A DNA stretch of 64,000 nucleotides from Bacillus sp. EAC. GTDB lineage: Bacteria; Bacillota; Bacilli; Bacillales; Bacillaceae_G. The position numbers were made by a program, and so were the translations under genes. Positions 9,825 to 49,157 of this stretch are shown here, piece after piece. The notes beneath the pieces are model-generated. The model saw only the letters and a list, made by a program, of their open reading frames with translations, searched no databases and was not told the origin of the DNA. The DNA lies in contig NZ_NCSY01000010.1 in NCBI RefSeq assembly GCF_002156875.1, positions 62,001 through 126,000 of the forward strand. The letters run 5' to 3'. Within the stretch, counting starts at the first letter, position 1. Each line of letters begins with the position of its first letter.

Positions 9825-10839
9825 ATTTTAATTTTTCCAAGTAAGCTATAGCTTGATGATAGCTGTTAATTGGAATAACTTTTATTTTTAGATGATGTGC
9901 TCTCGCACTTTTTACAGCCTCGTTATAGTTGGAATCTTTCTTACCGTTTTCATAAGGTGCAAAGAAAATTTCTGCGCCAGATTTAGAAGCAGCAACTATT
10001 TTTTGTGAAATCCCGCCGATTGGACCTACCATTCCTTTATTATCGATTGTTCCAGTACCAGCAATCTCATGCCCTTTTGCTAAGCTTTCTTTTTCTAGTT
10101 GATCATAAATCTCTAAAGCAAACATTAGGCCTGCAGATGGCCCTCCTATTTCCTCTGAATTGATCTTAACTTTAGGATTCGTACTTAATTTAATATTTTC
10201 AACAATTGAAACGCCTAAACCTGCACGATTTGGTTCATTTTGAAACGGTTTTGTTTTAATAGAAACATTTTTTGTTTTTCCATTTCGATTGATTTGAAGA
10301 TTAAATCGTGTTCCTGCTTTTGCGGAAGAAAGAATAGTTGTAAACTCTTTTGCAGAATCTACTTCCCTTTTGTTAATTTTCGTAATAACATCTCCCAATT
10401 TTAGTGCATCAAAGGCTGGCATACCTTTAATTATCGATACAATAATAATTCCATTTTTAGTCACCTGATAATGTTTTCCTGCTTGTTTGTAGGCATTTAT
10501 TATAGCAGCTTGTTTTGACTCTTCCATATAGCGCAGTTGACGAAACTGGTAATCTTCATTACTTTCGCCTTTAACCATTATTTCATCCGTTTTATATAGA
10601 TGATGATCTGAGTTAACCAACGTACCAATGTAAGAATAAATATTCGCTTTACTCATCGAAACAGTAGTCATCATAAATTCGCCTTTATCTTTATTTGCAC
10701 CTTCCACCTTTACATATGGTCTCAATGGCTCTGCTAACCCAGGCTTTGTTACATAATAAGGTAGTGGAATAAAAACTAATAGAACCAATATTATCCCGAA
10801 TACTAAAAGAACATTAAGTATTCTTATCCTTTTTTCCAC
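9823..10839 (-). CDS. ylbL: PDZ-domain Lon-like membrane protease YlbL (DdcP/SepM family)
   Basis: Membrane-anchored serine protease. One membrane segment at about residues 8-28 is followed by an extracellular region, a PDZ domain at about 128-195 (SIIKGMPAFDALKLGDVITKI) and a C-terminal Lon-type S16 domain. The Ser-Lys dyad is visible as IGGPSAGL (Ser235) and GGISQK (Lys280). In B. subtilis the homologue DdcP helps end the DNA-damage checkpoint by degrading the division inhibitor YneA; in streptococci SepM processes a peptide pheromone. Start codon 10839 lies inside the 3' end of ylbK (26-base overlap), indicating translational coupling. Confidence 0.93.
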   Translation of the reverse strand: MEKRIRILNVLLVFGIILVLLVFIPLPYYVTKPGLAEPLRPYVKVEGANKDKGEFMMTTVSMSKANIYSYIGTLVNSDHHLYKTDEIMVKGESNEDYQFRQLRYMEESKQAAIINAYKQAGKHYQVTKNGIIIVSIIKGMPAFDALKLGDVITKINKREVDSAKEFTTILSSAKAGTRFNLQINRNGKTKNVSIKTKPFQNEPNRAGLGVSIVENIKLSTNPKVKINSEEIGGPSAGLMFALEIYDQLEKESLAKGHEIAGTGTIDNKGMVGPIGGISQKIVAASKSGAEIFFAPYENGKKDSNYNEAVKSARAHHLKIKVIPINSYHQAIAYLEKLK

Positions 10840-11620
10840 TATTCTTCTCCTTCCATTCTTCTATCTGATCAAGAATCTCTGGAATAATTTCTTCCGTTGC
10901 TTCTTCACCAATTTGAATAATTTTCTCTAAGTCAGTAAAATTTCTCGAATTAAACTGTTCTAGCTTCGGTCTAATCATAATATTTGAAGCAATTTCTCTA
11001 TTTCTAACAAGTTCATGCTGCATAATTTCAATACTTTGCATAATGACATCGTAAATCGTTGAAACTTCCCCACTCACTTTAATTGGTGAAACGTCTACTC
11101 CAATAATAAAGTCCGCTCCCATTTCTTTTACTACTGAAACAGGAATTCGATCGATTACCCCGCCATCTACAAGTAATCTACCTTCCCACGGCTCAGGGAC
11201 AAATATTCCTGGAATTGAAATACTTCCTCTAACTGCAGTTGGAATATCACCTTCTAGAAATACGATTTTTTCTCCAGTTAACAAATCAGTTGCTATGATT
11301 GCAATTGGAATATCTAGTTCTTCAATTTTTTTACCAAATGATAGCACTTTTATTAATTCTTTTACTCGTTTCCCAGAAATCAATCCCATTTTAGGGACTA
11401 CGTAATCAAGATAAAACTTTGATTTAAACACTTTAGCTATGTTATACAATCTATCAATATTCGAACCTGCCCCATACAAAACAGCGATTAGTGATCCAAT
11501 ACTACTTCCTGCAATAAAGTGTATAGGTATATTATGCTTTTTTAACACAGAAATTACACCGATATGAGAAAAACCTCTTGCCCCACCTGAACCTAAAGCT
11601 AAACCAATTTTCGGTTCCAA
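10814..11620 (-). CDS. ylbK: Patatin-like phospholipase/esterase YlbK
   Basis: Patatin-family acyl hydrolase with a Ser-Asp dyad. The oxyanion-hole motif GSGGARG, the nucleophile elbow GSSIG and the DGG motif (LLVDGGVIDRIPV) are all intact. The start is uncertain: TTG 11620 has GGAGGGG six bases upstream, whereas an ATG five codons earlier (11635) overlaps that site, so the TTG is favoured (268 residues). The substrate is unknown; the family acts on membrane lipids. It overlaps ylbL and belongs to the same transcript. Confidence 0.92.
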   Translation of the reverse strand: MEPKIGLALGSGGARGFSHIGVISVLKKHNIPIHFIAGSSIGSLIAVLYGAGSNIDRLYNIAKVFKSKFYLDYVVPKMGLISGKRVKELIKVLSFGKKIEELDIPIAIIATDLLTGEKIVFLEGDIPTAVRGSISIPGIFVPEPWEGRLLVDGGVIDRIPVSVVKEMGADFIIGVDVSPIKVSGEVSTIYDVIMQSIEIMQHELVRNREIASNIMIRPKLEQFNSRNFTDLEKIIQIGEEATEEIIPEILDQIEEWKEKNSGKKDKNT

Positions 11621-11795
11621 GTATTTCCCCTCCATTTAAACTCATTGGTCTAAAACTGAAATCAACTAACGTATATTAAATGGTACAAGTATTTTAATTA
11701 ACCCTTATATGACTATCATATTTACGAATCACACTTCTTACGACAATTGTCATATTCAAAGATTAATTCCAATTATTTGTTGGAGGTTTATAGAT

Positions 11796-41964: not shown

Positions 41965-43416
41965 ATGAACCAAAATGAAACACCGTTGTTTTCTTCTTTA
42001 TTAGAGCATGCAAAGAAGGATCCAATTCAGTTCCATATTCCAGGTCATAAAAAAGGAAATGGAATGGATCCTGAATTTAGAGAGTTTATAGGCGATAACG
42101 CGCTATCCATCGATTTAATCAACATTGCTCCTTTAGATGATTTACATCATCCGAAAGGTAAAATAAAACAAGCACAAGATCTTGCAGCTGAGGCTTTTGG
42201 TGCTGATTATACTTTCTTTTCAGTACAAGGTACTAGTGGGGCTATAATGACAATGGTGATGAGTGTTTGTGGGCCTGGTGATAAAATTATCGTACCTAGA
42301 AATGTACATAAATCCGTATTGTCTGCCATCATTTTTTCTGGTGCAACACCAATATTTGTGCATCCAGAAATTGATATTGAGTTAGGTATATCTCACGGAA
42401 TTACAACTAATGCTGTAAAAGAAGCAATTTTAAGCCATCCTGATGCAAAAGCAGTTTTGGTAATTAATCCTACATACTTTGGCTTTGTGGCTGATTTAAA
42501 AAGCATCGTAGATTTAGCACATTCTCATGGAATTGCCGTTTTAGTAGATGAAGCTCATGGCGTACATATCCATTTCCATCATGAACTTCCAATATCAGCC
42601 ATGCAAGCAGGCGCTGACATGGCTGCTACGAGTGTTCATAAGCTTGGTGGCTCATTGACCCAAAGTTCAATATTAAACGTAAAAGAAGGCATTGTGAATG
42701 TCCACAGAGTACAATCTGTTTTAAGTATGCTTACAACGACTTCAACTTCATATTTATTGCTTGCTTCATTGGATGTAGCCAGAAAACGATTAGCTACCTT
42801 TGGAGAAGATTTAATTTCAGATACAATTAGATTAGCAAATGAAGCTCGAAACAAAATAAATAAAATTGATGGATTATATAGCCCAGGTTATGAGTTAGTC
42901 GGTAAAGAAGCTACATATCATTTCGATCCTACTAAACTATTAATTAGTGTAAAAAAATTAGGGATCACTGGTCACGATGTAGAAGTGTGGCTAAGAGAAC
43001 GCTTTAATATCGAAGTTGAGATGTCAGATTTATATAATGTTCTTTGTATTCTTACGTCTGGTGATAGCAGTGAAGCTATTGACAAATTAGTTCACGCTTT
43101 CGAAATACTAGTTCAAGAATTTCCTATTTCAAAGAACTATATGAACTTAGATGTCACAATCCCTACAATTCCTAACTTAGCAGTTTCACCTCGAGATGCA
43201 TTTTATTCAGAAACAGAATCTGTTCCTTTAGAGGAATCAGTTGGACGAATTATCGCAGAGTTTGTGATGGTCTATCCGCCAGGAATTCCTATATTCTTAC
43301 CTGGTGAAGAAATAACACTTGAAAATTTAATTTATATTAAGAAGAACATTGAAGCTGGTCTACCGGTGCAAGGTCCAGAGGACGAAGAATTATTAACTTT
43401 AAAGGTCATTAAATAA
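41965..43416 (+). CDS. speA: Arginine (Orn/Lys/Arg) decarboxylase SpeA
   Basis: PLP-dependent decarboxylase of fold type I that makes agmatine from arginine in polyamine synthesis. It has 483 residues: HIPGHKKGNGMDPEF at the N-terminus, PLP site VLVDEAHGVH, and the Schiff-base lysine in ATSVHKLGGSLTQ (Lys226), then a C-terminal Orn/Lys/Arg decarboxylase domain with PPGIPIFLPGE. Context (yktA, SR1 and pdh neighbours) identifies it as the B. subtilis speA orthologue rather than a lysine decarboxylase such as YaaO. Monocistronic with a terminator after a repeat. Confidence 0.94.
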   Translation: MNQNETPLFSSLLEHAKKDPIQFHIPGHKKGNGMDPEFREFIGDNALSIDLINIAPLDDLHHPKGKIKQAQDLAAEAFGADYTFFSVQGTSGAIMTMVMSVCGPGDKIIVPRNVHKSVLSAIIFSGATPIFVHPEIDIELGISHGITTNAVKEAILSHPDAKAVLVINPTYFGFVADLKSIVDLAHSHGIAVLVDEAHGVHIHFHHELPISAMQAGADMAATSVHKLGGSLTQSSILNVKEGIVNVHRVQSVLSMLTTTSTSYLLLASLDVARKRLATFGEDLISDTIRLANEARNKINKIDGLYSPGYELVGKEATYHFDPTKLLISVKKLGITGHDVEVWLRERFNIEVEMSDLYNVLCILTSGDSSEAIDKLVHAFEILVQEFPISKNYMNLDVTIPTIPNLAVSPRDAFYSETESVPLEESVGRIIAEFVMVYPPGIPIFLPGEEITLENLIYIKKNIEAGLPVQGPEDEELLTLKVIK

Positions 43417-43439
43417 ATAGGTTCCATTAATTGATTATT

Positions 43440-43605
43440 TATATTAAGTTCTGTTACAGCAGGAGTTATTATAGAATTGTTGCGGGAGATGCGAGCCTCC
43501 TGTTGGAATGTACGTGATTGTAACTAAGGAGGCTCAGTGTCGTTCAATTAAAAGTGATCATTCATGATTGAAAATCTTTTTAAATCGCAACAAAAATTAC
43601 TACCC
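43440..43605. repeat. Family A repeat after speA
   Basis: Diverged copy: CAGCAGGAGTTA, GCGGGAGATGCGAGCCTCCTG and AAGGAGGCTCAGTGTCGTTCAATTAAAAG. The GAGCCTCCT / AGGAGGCTC pair can base-pair. It separates speA from its terminator by about 200 bases. No ORF. Confidence 0.6.
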
Positions 43606-43635
43606 TATAAATAAAATAATAGAATGTTTAAGAAG

Positions 43636-43664
43636 ACTAGGAAAAAATATCCTAGTTTTTTTGT
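43636..43664 (+). terminator. Terminator downstream of speA
   Basis: Stem ACTAGGA / TCCTAGT with loop AAAAATA and a run of seven T. Confidence 0.8.
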
Positions 43665-43674
43665 TATGAAAATC

Positions 43675-43701
43675 ACATCTACATTAATTGGGCATATGAT
43701 A
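43675..43701 (+). promoter_or_regulatory. Candidate sigma-K promoter of tgl
   Basis: AC at 43675-43676 and CATATGATA at 43693-43701 are 16 bases apart, matching the sigma-K pattern (AC, 16-17 bases, CATAnnnTA). It lies 58 bases before the tgl start. In B. subtilis tgl is transcribed by sigma-K RNA polymerase in the mother cell, so the match is expected. Confidence 0.6.
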
Positions 43702-43759
43702 GGTAACGTAATTACATTAATTCATATTGAAAATTGCAATAATGATAGGATGTGAACCT

Positions 43760-44590
43760 ATGATAGTCGTGAATAATAAAATTGTTCAGGCTTCATTAAA
43801 AAATAGTGAAGATTCAAGCAACCCGCTTTTTCGAGAAATTCTAAAAGGATTAACGGATAGTAGAAAATCAAATATTTATAAATCGAATCGAGAATTATCA
43901 TTCGACTTAACTTTACGTACTTATATTATTAAGGCATCAAAAGAATTGCTTGCGAGCAATATGCAATTTAGGGTTTTTAGAAAAGCTTATTGTAATCCAA
44001 TGTTTTGGTTTCGTACACCACAAGGTGGTTTCAGACTTAGGCCAGGTGTAAGAGCGTCAGCAGGTATTTATGATATTTTTAGAAATGGACAATTTTATGC
44101 AACAGAGTGTGCTACTGCTATGGTTATGATTTTCTATAAGGCATTATTGGACTTATACGGTTATGAAATATTTGATCAATTATTCCAAGGCTTATATTTA
44201 TATACTTGGAATTACGATCAAAACTTAGCTATTCGTACATCAGAAGTAGATCGACCTGCTCCTGGAGATATCGTTTATATTAAAAACCCTCAAGTAGATC
44301 CAATGACCCCTGAGTGGCAAGGTGAAAATACCGTTGTAATGGGAAGTGGTTATTATTATGGGCATGGCATCGGAATTCGTACACTTCCAGAGATCATATT
44401 CCACTTAAATATGCATCGATATCCTTTTGCGATGATAACAGCCTTCTTAACGAACTTAAACACAAGAATAGATGCTGATGAAATGGCAAGTTATCTAAAA
44501 GATGATTCAAAGCTGATTCCTGTAAGTTCGAAAGTCGTTTCGAGTGAGGTAATTACTGCTCGAATTGGAGATCAGTCTCAAATCGCATAA
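43760..44590 (+). CDS. tgl: Protein-glutamine gamma-glutamyltransferase Tgl (spore coat)
   Basis: Transglutaminase that cross-links coat proteins such as GerQ through epsilon-(gamma-glutamyl)lysine bonds late in sporulation. From ATG 43760 (AGGATGTG upstream) the product has 276 residues, like B. cereus-group Tgl and about 30 longer than B. subtilis. The catalytic Cys is in YATECATAM (Cys117), Glu in WQGENTVV (Glu189) and His in YGHGIGI (His202). The open frame from 43727 runs through the ribosome-binding site. A sigma-K-like promoter precedes it and a bidirectional terminator is shared with SR1. Confidence 0.95.
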   Translation: MIVVNNKIVQASLKNSEDSSNPLFREILKGLTDSRKSNIYKSNRELSFDLTLRTYIIKASKELLASNMQFRVFRKAYCNPMFWFRTPQGGFRLRPGVRASAGIYDIFRNGQFYATECATAMVMIFYKALLDLYGYEIFDQLFQGLYLYTWNYDQNLAIRTSEVDRPAPGDIVYIKNPQVDPMTPEWQGENTVVMGSGYYYGHGIGIRTLPEIIFHLNMHRYPFAMITAFLTNLNTRIDADEMASYLKDDSKLIPVSSKVVSSEVITARIGDQSQIA

Positions 44591-44592
44591 AA

Positions 44593-44626
44593 ATAGAGGG
44601 TACCTATAGGTACCCTCTTTATCATG
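44593..44626. terminator. Shared terminator of tgl and SR1
   Basis: Perfect stem GAGGGTACC / GGTACCCTC with loop TATA; TTT on the plus side and CTATTTTTATG on the minus side. It ends tgl from the left and the SR1 RNA from the right. Confidence 0.85.
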
Positions 44627-44817
44627 TTTATCTTATTTAATTAGATAATTATTTAATATTAACAAGTTTCTTCAGAAGACGGCTCACAATGCTCACAATC
44701 TTTAACATATAACGTTGTAACTTTCTCATCCTCGAAATGACCTACTGTTTTATCACAACATTTACATACGAACGTTCCCATCTTGTAACCCCTTTCATAA
44801 TGATGTATCAATTAACT
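44594..44817 (-). ncRNA. sr1: Dual-function small RNA SR1 (encodes SR1P)
   Basis: Predicted minus-strand transcript of about 220 nt, from a sigma-A promoter (TTGCGT, 17 bases, TATAAT; start near 44817) to the terminator shared with tgl. In B. subtilis SR1 is 205 nt, lies between speA and the pdh operon, base-pairs with ahrC mRNA and encodes the peptide SR1P. Here length, location between speA/tgl and pdhD, and an SR1P ORF all agree. B. subtilis SR1 is repressed by CcpN and CcpA under glycolytic conditions; I recognise no cre site here, but a 13-bp palindrome surrounds the -35. Whether the ahrC-pairing segment is kept was not tested. Confidence 0.85.
44659..44781 (-). CDS. sr1P: SR1P, GapA-binding small peptide encoded by SR1
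   Basis: Peptide of 40 residues: it begins MGTFVCKCCDKTVGHFEDEK, continues VTTLYVKDCEHC and ends EPSSEETC. B. subtilis SR1P has the same MGT-V-C...C...HFEDEKVTTLY core. SR1P binds glyceraldehyde-3-phosphate dehydrogenase GapA and enhances its interaction with RNase J1. The start ATG 44781 has AAAGGGG seven bases upstream. The Cys are arranged C6, C8, C9 and C29, C32, C40, so a zinc site (CxxC-type pairs) is plausible. It is too short for standard gene calling and easily missed. Confidence 0.92.
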   Translation of the reverse strand: MGTFVCKCCDKTVGHFEDEKVTTLYVKDCEHCEPSSEETC

Positions 44818-44823
44818 ATCCTC

Positions 44824-44870
44824 ATTATAAAGTGTTATACTTATTTACGCAATAGGCAAATAAGTATAAC
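44824..44870 (-). promoter_or_regulatory. SR1 promoter with 13-bp perfect inverted repeat
   Basis: Minus-strand -10 TATAAT at 44824-44829 and -35 TTGCGT at 44847-44852, spacing 17. A perfect inverted repeat of 13-base arms (GTTATACTTATTT at 44834-44846 and its complement at 44858-44870) has an 11-base spacer that contains the -35 box, so a dimeric repressor binding it would cover the promoter. The regulator is not identified; CcpN is the known SR1 repressor in B. subtilis. Confidence 0.8.
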
Positions 44871-44950
44871 TCATATTTTTTATTTAATGAGTGCATCCCT
44901 TTTAATACATTGTATTAATTACCTAATTAGTATGTCACATTATTATTTTC

Positions 44951-45244
44951 CTATTCGTAACTCTCTTCAATTCTAGGAGCTGGTAACCAGTCTGCTAAAT
45001 ACTCAGCCAGTTGCATTGCCTCCTCTTCACTTTTCAATTTGCAAAGGAATTTTAATTGACTAGGAAATGAGACATCTTGTCGATCTAATACAATACATTG
45101 ACGGGATTGCATGCAAATGACGAGTGGTTTCCCGAAGAACATGTTCGTGTATACAATGCCTATATCGTATCTTATGTCATTAGCGATAAAACCAACAAAT
45201 CTTACTCTAGGATTTTCGATATCATCATATAATTTTTCAAACAT
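44951..45244 (-). CDS. DUF3055-like cytosolic protein
   Basis: Protein of 97 residues from ATG 45244 (GAGGAGTG upstream): MFEKLYDDIENPRVRFVGFIANDIRYDIGIVYTNMFFGKPLVICMQSRQ, then LDRQDVSFPSQLKFLCKLKSEEEAMQLAEYL. It looks like a mixed alpha/beta cytosolic protein without a membrane segment; two Cys (CMQSRQC) lie close together. I recall this as DUF3055, conserved beside SR1P and pdhD in bacilli, and state that with moderate confidence. Function unknown. Confidence 0.75.
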   Translation of the reverse strand: MFEKLYDDIENPRVRFVGFIANDIRYDIGIVYTNMFFGKPLVICMQSRQCIVLDRQDVSFPSQLKFLCKLKSEEEAMQLAEYLADWLPAPRIEESYE

Positions 45245-45395
45245 ATTATTTTCCACTCCTCACATTTGTGTTGTAAGTCTATACTTATGATGTGATTGTG
45301 AAATTCATTCCGAATACTTGTCTAAAAATTTGAAATAATGTTATGATATTACTAATGAAAAGTTTTTTGGAAAGACAACTTAGGGGGAAATATAA

Positions 45396-45800
45396 ATGGT
45401 TCAACAAGCTACCATTCAATTAATGGATAAATCAAAATATGAAGAGGCAAATTTAGATTTATTAAAAAACTTAATTAATGACTACATACAATCATCAAAT
45501 AAAATAGGGCAACAAGTTGATTGGAAATACGAAAGTGCTTCCTTTCCATATAATATCTCTACAAAAAAATTGGATGATCAAGATGCTCTTTACTTACAAA
45601 GTAATGATAGTAATGATCCCAGATATAATCACTTTGTTGTATCAGTTCAAGATGACAAAAATATTGTTATTACACTTTTGCCTAATTCAACTTATGGTGA
45701 TAAAGGTAAAGCGAATGAGTTTTGCAGATTTTTAGCCCAAAAAGTAGAAGGTAAATTAGAATTATTTAATAAGAGAATTATGTATTTTTACAAAAGATAA
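45396..45800 (+). CDS. DUF1885-like protein
   Basis: Cytosolic protein of 134 residues: MVQQATIQLMDKSKYEEANLDLLKNLINDYIQSSNKIGQQVDWKYESASFPYNI, then HFVVSVQDDKNIVITLLPNSTYGDKGKANEFCRFLAQKVEGKLELFNKRIMYF. The pattern suggests an alpha/beta fold related to DUF1885 (structure known, function not); the assignment is from memory. TTAGGGGGAAA precedes the ATG. It is divergent from the DUF3055-like gene and has its own terminator 55 bases downstream. Confidence 0.75.
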   Translation: MVQQATIQLMDKSKYEEANLDLLKNLINDYIQSSNKIGQQVDWKYESASFPYNISTKKLDDQDALYLQSNDSNDPRYNHFVVSVQDDKNIVITLLPNSTYGDKGKANEFCRFLAQKVEGKLELFNKRIMYFYKR

Positions 45801-45803
45801 AGA

Positions 45804-46061
45804 TTAAAACATATTAATGATCATTTGACAAAAGAAAAATATGCTAGCATTGAAGCAAGTAATCATAATACTTGCTTTTTTGCTGTTTCCAACATACTGA
45901 GCTATAAGATAAAGTTGAAAAAAAAACACTAAAAATAAAATGATTTTTGAATGTATTTGATCTCTTTTTGATAAATACAATACAAAAGAAAATCCGATCC
46001 AAAAAATTTGATGTATGAATAAAACAATAATTGGCTTTCTCACAGGAAACGACACCACCAT
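45804..46061 (-). CDS. Possible small membrane protein
   Basis: Open frame of 85 codons with three hydrophobic stretches (about 10-30, 40-60 and 64-84) and positive residues between them; GAGAGGTTGA precedes the ATG at 46061. Against it, a good plus-strand terminator for the 45396 gene lies inside it (45854-45882), and no family was recognised. It may be fortuitous. Confidence 0.3.
   Translation of the reverse strand: MVVSFPVRKPIIVLFIHQIFWIGFSFVLYLSKRDQIHSKIILFLVFFFQLYLIAQYVGNSKKASIMITCFNASIFFFCQMIINMF
45854..45884 (+). terminator. Terminator of the DUF1885-like gene
   Basis: Stem AAGCAAGTA / TACTTGCTT with loop ATCATAA and TTTTTTG tail, 55 bases after the 45800 stop. Confidence 0.8.
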
Positions 46062-46121
46062 TCAACCTCTCAATAAAAATTGTGTTATTTAAACGTTATG
46101 CGGATTAAACTTTTAACATGC

Positions 46122-46157
46122 AAAAAAACCTACTAAATTAATAGGAGGTTTTTTTGA
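46122..46157. terminator. Terminator displaced from pdhD by a repeat
   Basis: Stem AACCTNCTA / TAG-AGGTT (46128-46150, one mismatch) with seven A on the left and seven T on the right, active in either direction. No gene ends close by; on the minus strand it would be the pdhD terminator, but a 200-base repeat separates them. Confidence 0.65.
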
Positions 46158-46159
46158 TT

Positions 46160-46368
46160 TATTTCTTGTTTCTGGGCCAAGACCCTTGAGGTCAAAAAAC
46201 AAATAACAGTCGTGGTTTTAGCAAAGACGCCTCCACAATTCGTACTGTCTAGTTCAAGGCGTTAGTTGATCGAGCTCATAAAACAAGGACCAGCAAAGGT
46301 TAAAAACCAACCTTTACTGATCCTTTTCTTTTGCTTGCGGAAGCTTTAGAGAAAGCGCTCCACTTTTC
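46160..46368. repeat. Diverged family B repeat next to pdhD
   Basis: In order: GGGCCAAGACCCTTGAGGTC, ACAGTCGTGGTTTTAGCAAAG, GTACTGTCTAGTTCAAGGCG, AAAGGTTAAAAACCAACCTTT (hairpin core), GCTTGCGGAAGC and CGCTCCACTTTTCGTATT. The same elements, in a related order, build the 59.7-60 kb copies (GTCTAGTTCCAGCGG, GAAGGTTAAAAACCAACCTTC, GCTTCCACTTTTCG). The inner hairpin, GGATCAGTAAAGG on the minus strand, may act as pdhD terminator. Confidence 0.65.
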
Positions 46369-46371
46369 GTA

Positions 46372-47784
46372 TTATTTTAATACGTGAATTGGATGACCCA
46401 TTGCTAATTCAGCGGCTTCCATTGAGATTTCACCTAATGTAGGATGAGCATGAATTGTTTGAGCAATATCTTCAACACTCATACACGCTTCGATTGCAAG
46501 TCCAAGCTCAGATATAATATCTGATGCATTAACACCAGCTACTTGAGCACCAACTAGTACGCCATCTTCTTTACGTGAAATTAGCTGAACGAAACCATCT
46601 GTAGAGTTTAGTGATAATGCGCGTCCATTTCCACCAAATGGGAATTTTGAAACTTTTACATCTAATCCTTCTTCATCAGCTTGTTTTTTAGTGTATCCAA
46701 CAGTAGCTAGTTCTGGATCAGTAAATACTACTGCAGGGATCGCTAAATATTCAATTTCACTTGTCATTCCACTAATTGCTTCTGCAGCTACTTTACCTTC
46801 ATAAGAAGCTTTATGAGCTAATGGAGGTCCAGCAATTACATCGCCAATTGCATAAATATTTTTAACTGTTGTACGAGCTTGTTTATCTGTTGTAATTACA
46901 CCACGTTCGTTAATTTCAACACCGATATTTTCTAAACCGATTTCACGAGAGTTAGGGAATCGTCCAACTGTTACTAAAACGTAATCAGCATCGATTTCCT
47001 TCATTTCACCATTTGTTTCGAACTTAACAGTAACGCCATCTTCACGTTCTTCAACGCCTTTACCAAACGCTTTTGTCACGATATCTACATTACCTTTTTT
47101 CTTTAATCCACGCTTAACAATTGAGCTCATTGATTTTTCAAAACCATTTAAGATTTCATCACCAGCTTCAAGAATTGTTACATGTGTACCAAAATTAGCA
47201 TAAGCAGTACCTAATTCCATACCTATATAGCCGCCACCGATAACAACTAATTTTTTTGGAATTTCAGTTAGGTTTAATGCACCTGTAGAATCAATTACAC
47301 GTTTGCTCCATTTAAAACCTGGAATTTCGATTGGAGTAGAACCTGTAGCGATAATCGCATTGTTAAAAGTATATGTTTGAGCTGAATCATCATTAATTAC
47401 ACGAATAGAATTTGTGTCATTAAAATATGCTTCCCCTGAAATAACTTCTACTTTGTTACCTTTTAATAAACCAGCAACGCCACCAGTTAATTTTGAAACA
47501 ACACTGCTTTTCCATGCTTGAACTTTTGTAAAATCAACTTTTACGTTCTCAGCAGTTATACCAATGTCTTCTGAATGCATTGCAGTTTCATAACGGTGAC
47601 CTGCCGTAATTAATGCTTTAGAAGGTATACAACCAACATTTAGACATACACCACCAAGTGTACCTTTTTCAATTACAGCAACTTTTTGTCCAAGTTGAGC
47701 TGCACGGATAGCAGCAACGTAACCACCAGGACCGGCACCGATAACGACCGTATCTAGTTCAATTGCAAAATCTCCTACTACCAT
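46372..47784 (-). CDS. pdhD: Dihydrolipoyl dehydrogenase, PDH complex E3
   Basis: FAD flavoprotein that reoxidises dihydrolipoamide in the pyruvate dehydrogenase (and other 2-oxoacid) complexes, 470 residues as in B. subtilis. The FAD motif is [12 protein letters not shown], the redox disulfide [12 protein letters not shown] (Cys47/Cys52), NAD motif [12 protein letters not shown] and the C-terminal HAHPTLGE His-Glu pair. ATG 47784 follows GGAGGCG. It is the last gene of pdhA-B-C-D, 5 bases after pdhC. Confidence 0.98.
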
Positions 47785-47789
47785 TTATC

Positions 47790-49157
47790 TTACGCCTCCA
47801 TTAATAATAATTCTGGATCATTTAATAATCGTTTAATATGGTTTAAAGCGTTTTGAGCCGTTGCACCATCGATCATACGGTGGTCAAAGCTTAATGATAA
47901 CGCTAATACTGGAGCAACTGCGATTTCTCCATTTATTACAACAGGTTTTTCAGCGATACGACCAATACCTAAAATAGCTACTTCTGGGTGGTTAATTACA
48001 GGTGTAAACCATTGTCCACCAGCAGAACCGATATTTGAAATTGTGCAAGTTGCACCTTTCATTTCAGCAGGAGCTAATTTTCCATCACGAGCTTTTGTAG
48101 CTAACTCGTTAATTTCAGCAGAAATTGAGAAAATAGCTTTACGGTCAGCATCTTTAACAACTGGTACTAATAAACCTTTATCAGTATCTGCAGCAATACC
48201 GATGTTATAGTAATGTTTGTGTACGATTTCGCTAGTAGCATCATCGATTGATGTATTTAATGCTGGGAATTTACGTAATGCAGAAGTTAACGCTTTAACA
48301 ACATAAGGTAAGAATGTTAATTTGATACCTTGTGCAGCTGCAACTTCTTTATATTTTTTACGGCTAGCAACTAATTTCGTTACATCTACTTCATCCATTA
48401 ATGTTACGTGTGGAGCAGTGTGTTTAGAGTTAACCATTGCTTTTGCAATTGCTTTACGGATCCCACTCATTTTTTCACGAGTTTCAGGGTATGCACCTTC
48501 AGGAGTTGGCATTGCTTTTGGAGCTTCCTGTTTAGCAGCTGGAGTTTCTGTAACTACTTCAACAGCAACTTCAGTTTGTGCTGCAGCTGCCGGTGCTACT
48601 CCACCTAGTAAGAATGCATCTACGTCTTGTTTTGTTACACGACCATTTTTAGCTGAACCCGGTACGATACGTAAATCTACGTTTTTCTCACGCGCATATT
48701 TACGTACAGATGGCATTGCAATTACATGAGCTTTTGGTTCAATTGCAGCAACTGGTGAAAGTGGTGCAGCATCAGTTTTTGGTTCGTTTTGCTCATAAGA
48801 TTCTTGTACTTTTGCTTGAACCGCGTCAGCAGCTTCTGGTACTGGAGTAGTTGTTGGAGCTTCTTCAGCATGTTGACCTTTAAAGCTTATGTTTTCATAA
48901 CCAGGTGCATCTAAACGTACTAAAACGTCACCAACAACTGCTACTGTTCCTTCGCTAACTATAACTTCTAAAACTTTTCCTTTTACAGGTGATGGAATTT
49001 CAACTACTGATTTATCGTTTTGAACTTCACAAATGATATCATCTTCATTTATTTCGTCGCCTGCTTTAATAAACCATTTTACAATTTCACCTTCGTGAAT
49101 ACCTTCACCGATATCTGGTAATCTAAATTCAAATAGACTTGCCACTGAGTTTGACAC
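47790..49157 (-). CDS. pdhC: Dihydrolipoamide acetyltransferase, PDH complex E2
   Basis: Core of the pyruvate dehydrogenase complex, 455 residues. One N-terminal lipoyl domain (about 8-85; the lipoylated lysine is in VQNDKSVVE, Lys49), an Ala/Pro/Glu-rich flexible linker, a peripheral subunit-binding domain (about 150-187, [16 protein letters not shown]) and the catalytic domain, with the active-site [10 protein letters not shown] motif. The start is a GTG at 49157 behind GGAGGT. It is separated from pdhB by 108 bases holding a hairpin, whereas pdhC-pdhD is tight. Confidence 0.97.

Follow-up and report, generated by a model that had tools for sequence, protein, structure and literature searches.

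A palindrome around the -35 box of the SR1 promoter in Gottfriedia and near relatives as a probable CcpN operator

The SR1 locus of Bacillus sp. EAC raises the question of which regulator, if any, recognizes the perfect palindrome that encloses the -35 box of its promoter. The locus lies in a stretch of 64,000 nucleotides from contig NZ_NCSY01000010.1, referred to here as the window. A first-pass annotation had held that the palindrome looks like neither a cre site nor a CcpN site, and had suggested that another dimeric regulator may act at this promoter. Our analysis points instead to the gluconeogenic repressor CcpN: by analogy with B. subtilis, the palindrome is very probably the operator through which this protein would bind at the sr1 promoter. 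The elements of the locus are as follows.

44592..44618, minus strand: intrinsic terminator of SR1 (stem 44595-44618 and the start of a T-rich tail)
44659..44781, minus strand: SR1P coding sequence, 40 codons plus stop, with its ATG at 44781
44824..44829, minus strand (44829-44824): putative -10 hexamer TATAAT
44831..44841, plus strand: CcpN box 2, AGTGTTATACT in the plus-strand reading, 10/11 matches to the assumed consensus (see below), in the -35/-10 spacer and extending toward the -10 hexamer
44834..44870, no strand: perfect palindrome GTTATACTTATTT-n11-AAATAAGTATAAC, with 13-bp arms (13/13 bp paired) and an 11-nt spacer
44847..44852, minus strand (44852-44847): putative -35 hexamer TTGCGT, within the palindrome spacer
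44863..44873, minus strand: CcpN box 1, TGAGTTATACT, 10/11 matches, immediately upstream of the -35 hexamer
44929..44939, minus strand: CcpN box 3, TGTGACATACT, 11/11 matches, 66 bp upstream of box 1

Most of what had been described at this locus holds. The 40-residue protein, proposed as an SR1P homologue, matches PF13790 with an E value of 4.8e-13 and a score of 49.5 bits (cut-off 26), and thus belongs to the family; an NCBIfam search of the same protein assigned no family. SR1/SR1P is further characterized by pairing of the RNA with ahrC mRNA and by attachment of SR1P to GapA, two functions that the homologue here may share. The promoter (TTGCGT-17-TATAAT, with 17 nt between the hexamers), the terminator and the perfect 13-bp palindrome with the -35 box in its spacer are likewise present as described. 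The promoter is absent from the listing of a generic promoter scan; TTGCGT agrees with the scan's -35 consensus at fewer positions than required. The terminator is strong, its 12-bp inverted repeat (44595-44618) giving way to a stretch rich in T. Transcription would begin near 44817, judging from the position of the promoter, and the predicted transcript of approximately 225 nt, where about 200 nt would be typical of SR1, is deduced from the sequence elements. An Rfam search of positions 42000-48000, at E values up to 1, gave five matches that were all under their gathering scores and were taken as chance.

One flank of the locus carries a gene for a protein-glutamine gamma-glutamyltransferase and, on the same side, a basic amino acid decarboxylase-like gene whose matches fall below cut-offs. 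On the opposite flank are a SAV0927-like gene (45256-44951, same strand as SR1) and a DUF1885 gene, and beyond the latter lie genes that, read by eye, we take to be pdhD and pdhC. The window has eight perfect inverted repeats whose arms measure 13 bp or more and whose spacers do not exceed 20 nt. Seven of them have, by eye, the A-run and T-run ends of terminators, and the SR1 palindrome alone is without this look.

Boxes were picked and scored with the string TRTGHYATAYW, which we take to be the CcpN box consensus and which was not found in a literature search. Boxes 1 and 2 consist of the palindrome arms plus the outer flanks of these arms, and box 2 is inverted relative to box 1. The perfect 13-bp symmetry of the arms exceeds what the box model needs. 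Box 3 had not been noticed in the first-pass annotation.

Sequences from other genomes were used to build a model of these boxes. SR1P is present in 325 of the 397 genomes searched. Seventy SR1 loci were read, comprising the 30 best-scoring and 40 hand-picked for their spread over families, and 80 named loci (the best 80 of 429, overlapping with the 70) were added. Once identical sequences had been removed, 143 of 165 upstream regions were left. A weight matrix was derived from the box upstream of the -35 hexamer in 116 of the 124 unique SR1 promoters from outside the window's family; the other eight yielded no training box. Counts of the training boxes, which had themselves been chosen with the assumed consensus, agree with it at 11/11 positions and add four more, A-W-T-T. 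Among all positions of the 64-kb window, the 11-nt matrix ranks box 3 first, box 2 third and box 1 sixth, and with a 16-nt matrix the ranks are first, third and only eighth. None of 5000 shuffles of the 169-bp SR1 region reached three box hits. The second-best box match in the window, TATGTTATACA at 11438-11448, falls within an open frame that we read by eye as patatin-like (10814-11635, minus strand) and is therefore probably due to chance.

The places of boxes 1 and 2 are those expected for CcpN. In the cited passages, the B. subtilis promoter psr1 is described with two CcpN sites, one directly upstream of the -35 box and one in the spacer (PMC8464778; similarly PMC7430163). The predicted sites upstream of the -35 box and in the spacer of the window's promoter coincide with these reported places, and here too SR1/SR1P lies downstream, with ccpN, gapB and pckA present in the genome. 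The claim that the palindrome is unlike a CcpN site is thus not supported, because a CcpN box is present in either arm, in each case where those passages report a site, and because the same palindrome occurs at gapB. The need for a new regulator falls with it, since the arms are two such boxes. In contrast to the cited description of psr1, a third box is found 66 bp upstream.

Conservation was followed in a set of 13 genomes, including this one, that belong to Gottfriedia or lie very near to it (the named near relatives are Gottfriedia species and Bacillus strains). The palindrome, whose absence from every relative with sr1P had been named as a refuting result, is kept in all 12 of these genomes that carry SR1P; the remaining genome (G004) is without SR1P and without the palindrome. 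The arms have no variable position in the 12 genomes, and variation within the 37-bp palindrome is confined to the spacer, at four of the five bases that do not belong to TTGCGT. Conservation of the arms together with compensatory changes had been named as support for an operator. The conservation is seen, but with invariant arms no compensatory changes can show up within the genus. The SR1 leader downstream of the palindrome is also well conserved, so conservation of the arms is by itself no proof of an operator. Box 1 scores 10/11 in ten genomes and 9/11 in two; position 3 is where it differs from the consensus, and two of the 12 genomes have a second mismatch. Box 2 scores 11/11 in eight genomes and 10/11 in four, and in all 12 box 3, an 11/11 match, precedes box 1 by 66 bp.

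The same palindrome occurs at a second gene. A pattern taken from the sr1 site alone, with up to three mismatches, matches two places in the 4.33-Mb genome, whereas its reversed control matches none. One place is sr1. The other lies directly 5' of a glyceraldehyde-3-phosphate dehydrogenase gene that adjoins a coaE-like gene and that we read as gapB; the paralogue of this dehydrogenase in the same genome is 60% identical. A generalised 37-nt pattern was then found at 22 places in the 13 genomes; judged by coordinate, 12 of these belong to sr1 and 10 to gapB. The gapB matches are partly by design, since both sites of the window's own genome, sr1 and gapB, were used to build the pattern. Its reversed control gave one match in each of two genomes. 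The three genomes in which this fixed-spacing pattern has no gapB match (G004, G006 and G011) have gapB boxes 33-34, not 32, bp apart.

Boxes are also found before the other genes expected of a CcpN regulon. Taken together, the cited passages describe CcpN of B. subtilis as acting on gapB, pckA and sr1 (PMC8464778, PMC7430163, PMC7936320, PMC3616900), and deletion of ccpN in a Geobacillus relative is described as raising gapB and pckA transcripts (PMC7936320). In all 13 genomes of the genus set, the best or second-best hit of the matrix falls before gapB, accompanied by the inverted partner AGTATAACTTA, and the best hit falls before pckA and before ccpN. A 15-nt version of the box has six places in the window's own genome, compared with one for its reversed control. 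These include box 3 of sr1, gapB and pckA; two further places are before an Mrp/SalA-like ATPase gene and before an amino acid permease-like gene (names by eye), and the sixth falls where an open frame of the opposite strand ends. The ccpN gene adjoins a PF03618 gene in all 13 genomes. The CcpN of this genome scores 331.3 bits with the NCBIfam CcpN model (cut-off 260), and the CBS part of this protein has a match in 3fv6, a solved chain of YqzB.

Several features of these genes were observed in passing. The own-genome copy of ccpN (contig C21, beside 546924-547688) has no in-frame ATG, GTG or TTG before the first conserved residues and may start with an ATA codon; in the other 12 genomes, a GTG lies in frame three codons further upstream. 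The box immediately before ccpN is TATGTTATACT in the genus set (TATGCTATACT in one genome) and occurs in 13/13, an arrangement that suggests autoregulation. An extra strong box is located just downstream of gapB, approximately 1080-1120 bases after the gapB start, in 8 of the 13 genomes; the window's own genome is not among them.

A regulon that apparently includes ccpN itself recalls that of Lactobacillales, for which ppdK, ccpN and fbp are listed in the cited passage (PMC3616900). Those targets differ from the ones seen here, and the same passage terms them completely different from the B. subtilis set.

Three other explanations for the palindrome were weighed. A different dimeric regulator, acting alone or in competition with CcpN, could use the arms, whose perfect symmetry covers 13 bp and extends past the 11-bp boxes, and which are invariant in 12/12 genomes. 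We regard this as improbable because every pattern match in the 13 genomes falls at sr1 or gapB, two CcpN targets, because the arms fit a box model derived from sr1 promoters of other families, and because the flanking bases that the arms share resemble the A-W-T-T found after box 1 elsewhere. Less probable still is an RNA hairpin that ends transcripts from the upstream SAV0927-like gene on the same strand. The palindrome is listed by a terminator scan and its predicted fold is stable (-15.7 kcal/mol, z -7.8), but the scanned stem has only three G-C pairs, no real T-run comes afterwards (ACTTTATAAT), the loop contains the -35 hexamer, the same pattern precedes gapB, and the arms match CcpN boxes. 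A chance palindrome in AT-rich DNA (G+C content of the window 33%) can be set aside with near certainty, since 12 dinucleotide shuffles of the window gave one comparable repeat in total, the pattern recurs at gapB, and both arms are kept in 12/12 genomes.

The boxes differ in orientation from those of most sr1 promoters outside the family. Among the 124 unique sr1 promoters outside the family, consensus matches assign 92 to a direct layout, 22 to layouts readable both ways and 4 to an inverted layout, with 6 unassigned. The Gottfriedia sr1 promoters are inverted in 12/12, by two matches, and those of other family members in 7/7, although four of these (L117, L118, L132 and L142) are assigned by one match only. 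Direct sr1 boxes are 30-33 bp apart, and the Gottfriedia boxes are separated by 32 bp. Thus, the sr1 operators exist in direct, ambiguous and inverted layouts, yet their boxes are nearly fixed in place around the -35 hexamer. A perfect same-strand box 65 or 66 bp upstream was found in 12 cases among the 124 promoters. The inverted spacer box, which creates the palindrome, sets Gottfriedia apart from B. subtilis psr1, whose orientation is assumed here from the mostly direct promoters outside the family.

The inverted layout resembles that of gapB. For comparison outside the genus, the 27 best-scoring gapB loci of 102 genomes with a match were used, and two convergent boxes 32-34 bp apart are present in 25 of these 27. 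Box 1 of gapB contains a -10-like TATACT; the gapB boxes therefore probably flank the start site, whereas the sr1 boxes converge on the -35 hexamer. We conclude that the operator is almost certainly a modest variant of the known CcpN switch with a mirror layout of the gapB type.

By analogy with B. subtilis, such an operator would work as follows. Of the two CcpN boxes that face each other across the -35 hexamer, one adjoins it on the upstream side and the other occupies the spacer toward the -10; the third is situated 66 bp further upstream. During growth on glucose, CcpN would sit on these boxes and halt RNA polymerase. Under gluconeogenic conditions, it would leave them, such that SR1 and SR1P are made alongside GapB and PckA. 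A part for box 3 in this scheme is conjectural.

The core of the box comes close to symmetry, and sequences like AGTATGACATATT (L113, L202) form a box on either strand. Sequences of this type might offer a path for reversal in place. It is conceivable, though doubtful, that the sr1 operator of this lineage was rebuilt in place from a direct repeat to a gapB-type palindrome by way of such box 2 sequences, and that CcpN, with the third box at a fixed 66 bp and possibly with looping, represses SR1 by a geometry unlike that of B. subtilis. The series of layouts provides natural material for asking whether box orientation affects the ability of CcpN to stop RNA polymerase, and the conserved third site adds a further test object. 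A literature search for Gottfriedia and SR1 found nothing; the primary CcpN and SR1 papers lay outside this search, and neither the inverted layout nor the third box is therefore claimed as unpublished.

The view that the palindrome is not a cre site is upheld. With TGWNANCGNTNWCA, which we take to be the cre consensus, and up to one mismatch, the 64-kb window contains eight matches compared with 7.4 expected, which is the level of chance. The sole cre-like match near sr1 (44784-44797) reads CC where the core should be CG and is not credible. This differs from B. subtilis sr1, for which a cre site approximately 260 bp upstream is described in the cited passage (PMC8464778). Within the 90 nt that precede SR1P, a cre-like half motif, A-R-C-G-N-T-W-H-C, is found in 96 of the 124 promoters outside the family, in 6 of 7 from other family members and in 0 of 12 from Gottfriedia, counts that carry no shuffle control. 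Across the order, this motif is possibly a second, downstream CcpA site that is absent from the descriptions in the cited passages.

Proteins of the SR1P family are not confined to the sr1 locus. A second PF13790 protein, starting MQILICKECEET, is encoded in 11 of the 13 genomes of the genus set (C25:260781-260879 in the window's own genome). Its upstream region is conserved and has no clear CcpN box pair. In one member of the family (G398; L142, L159 and C104:29097-29549), PF13790 matches six times, and three of these matches form a tandem array within a single open frame of 170 residues.
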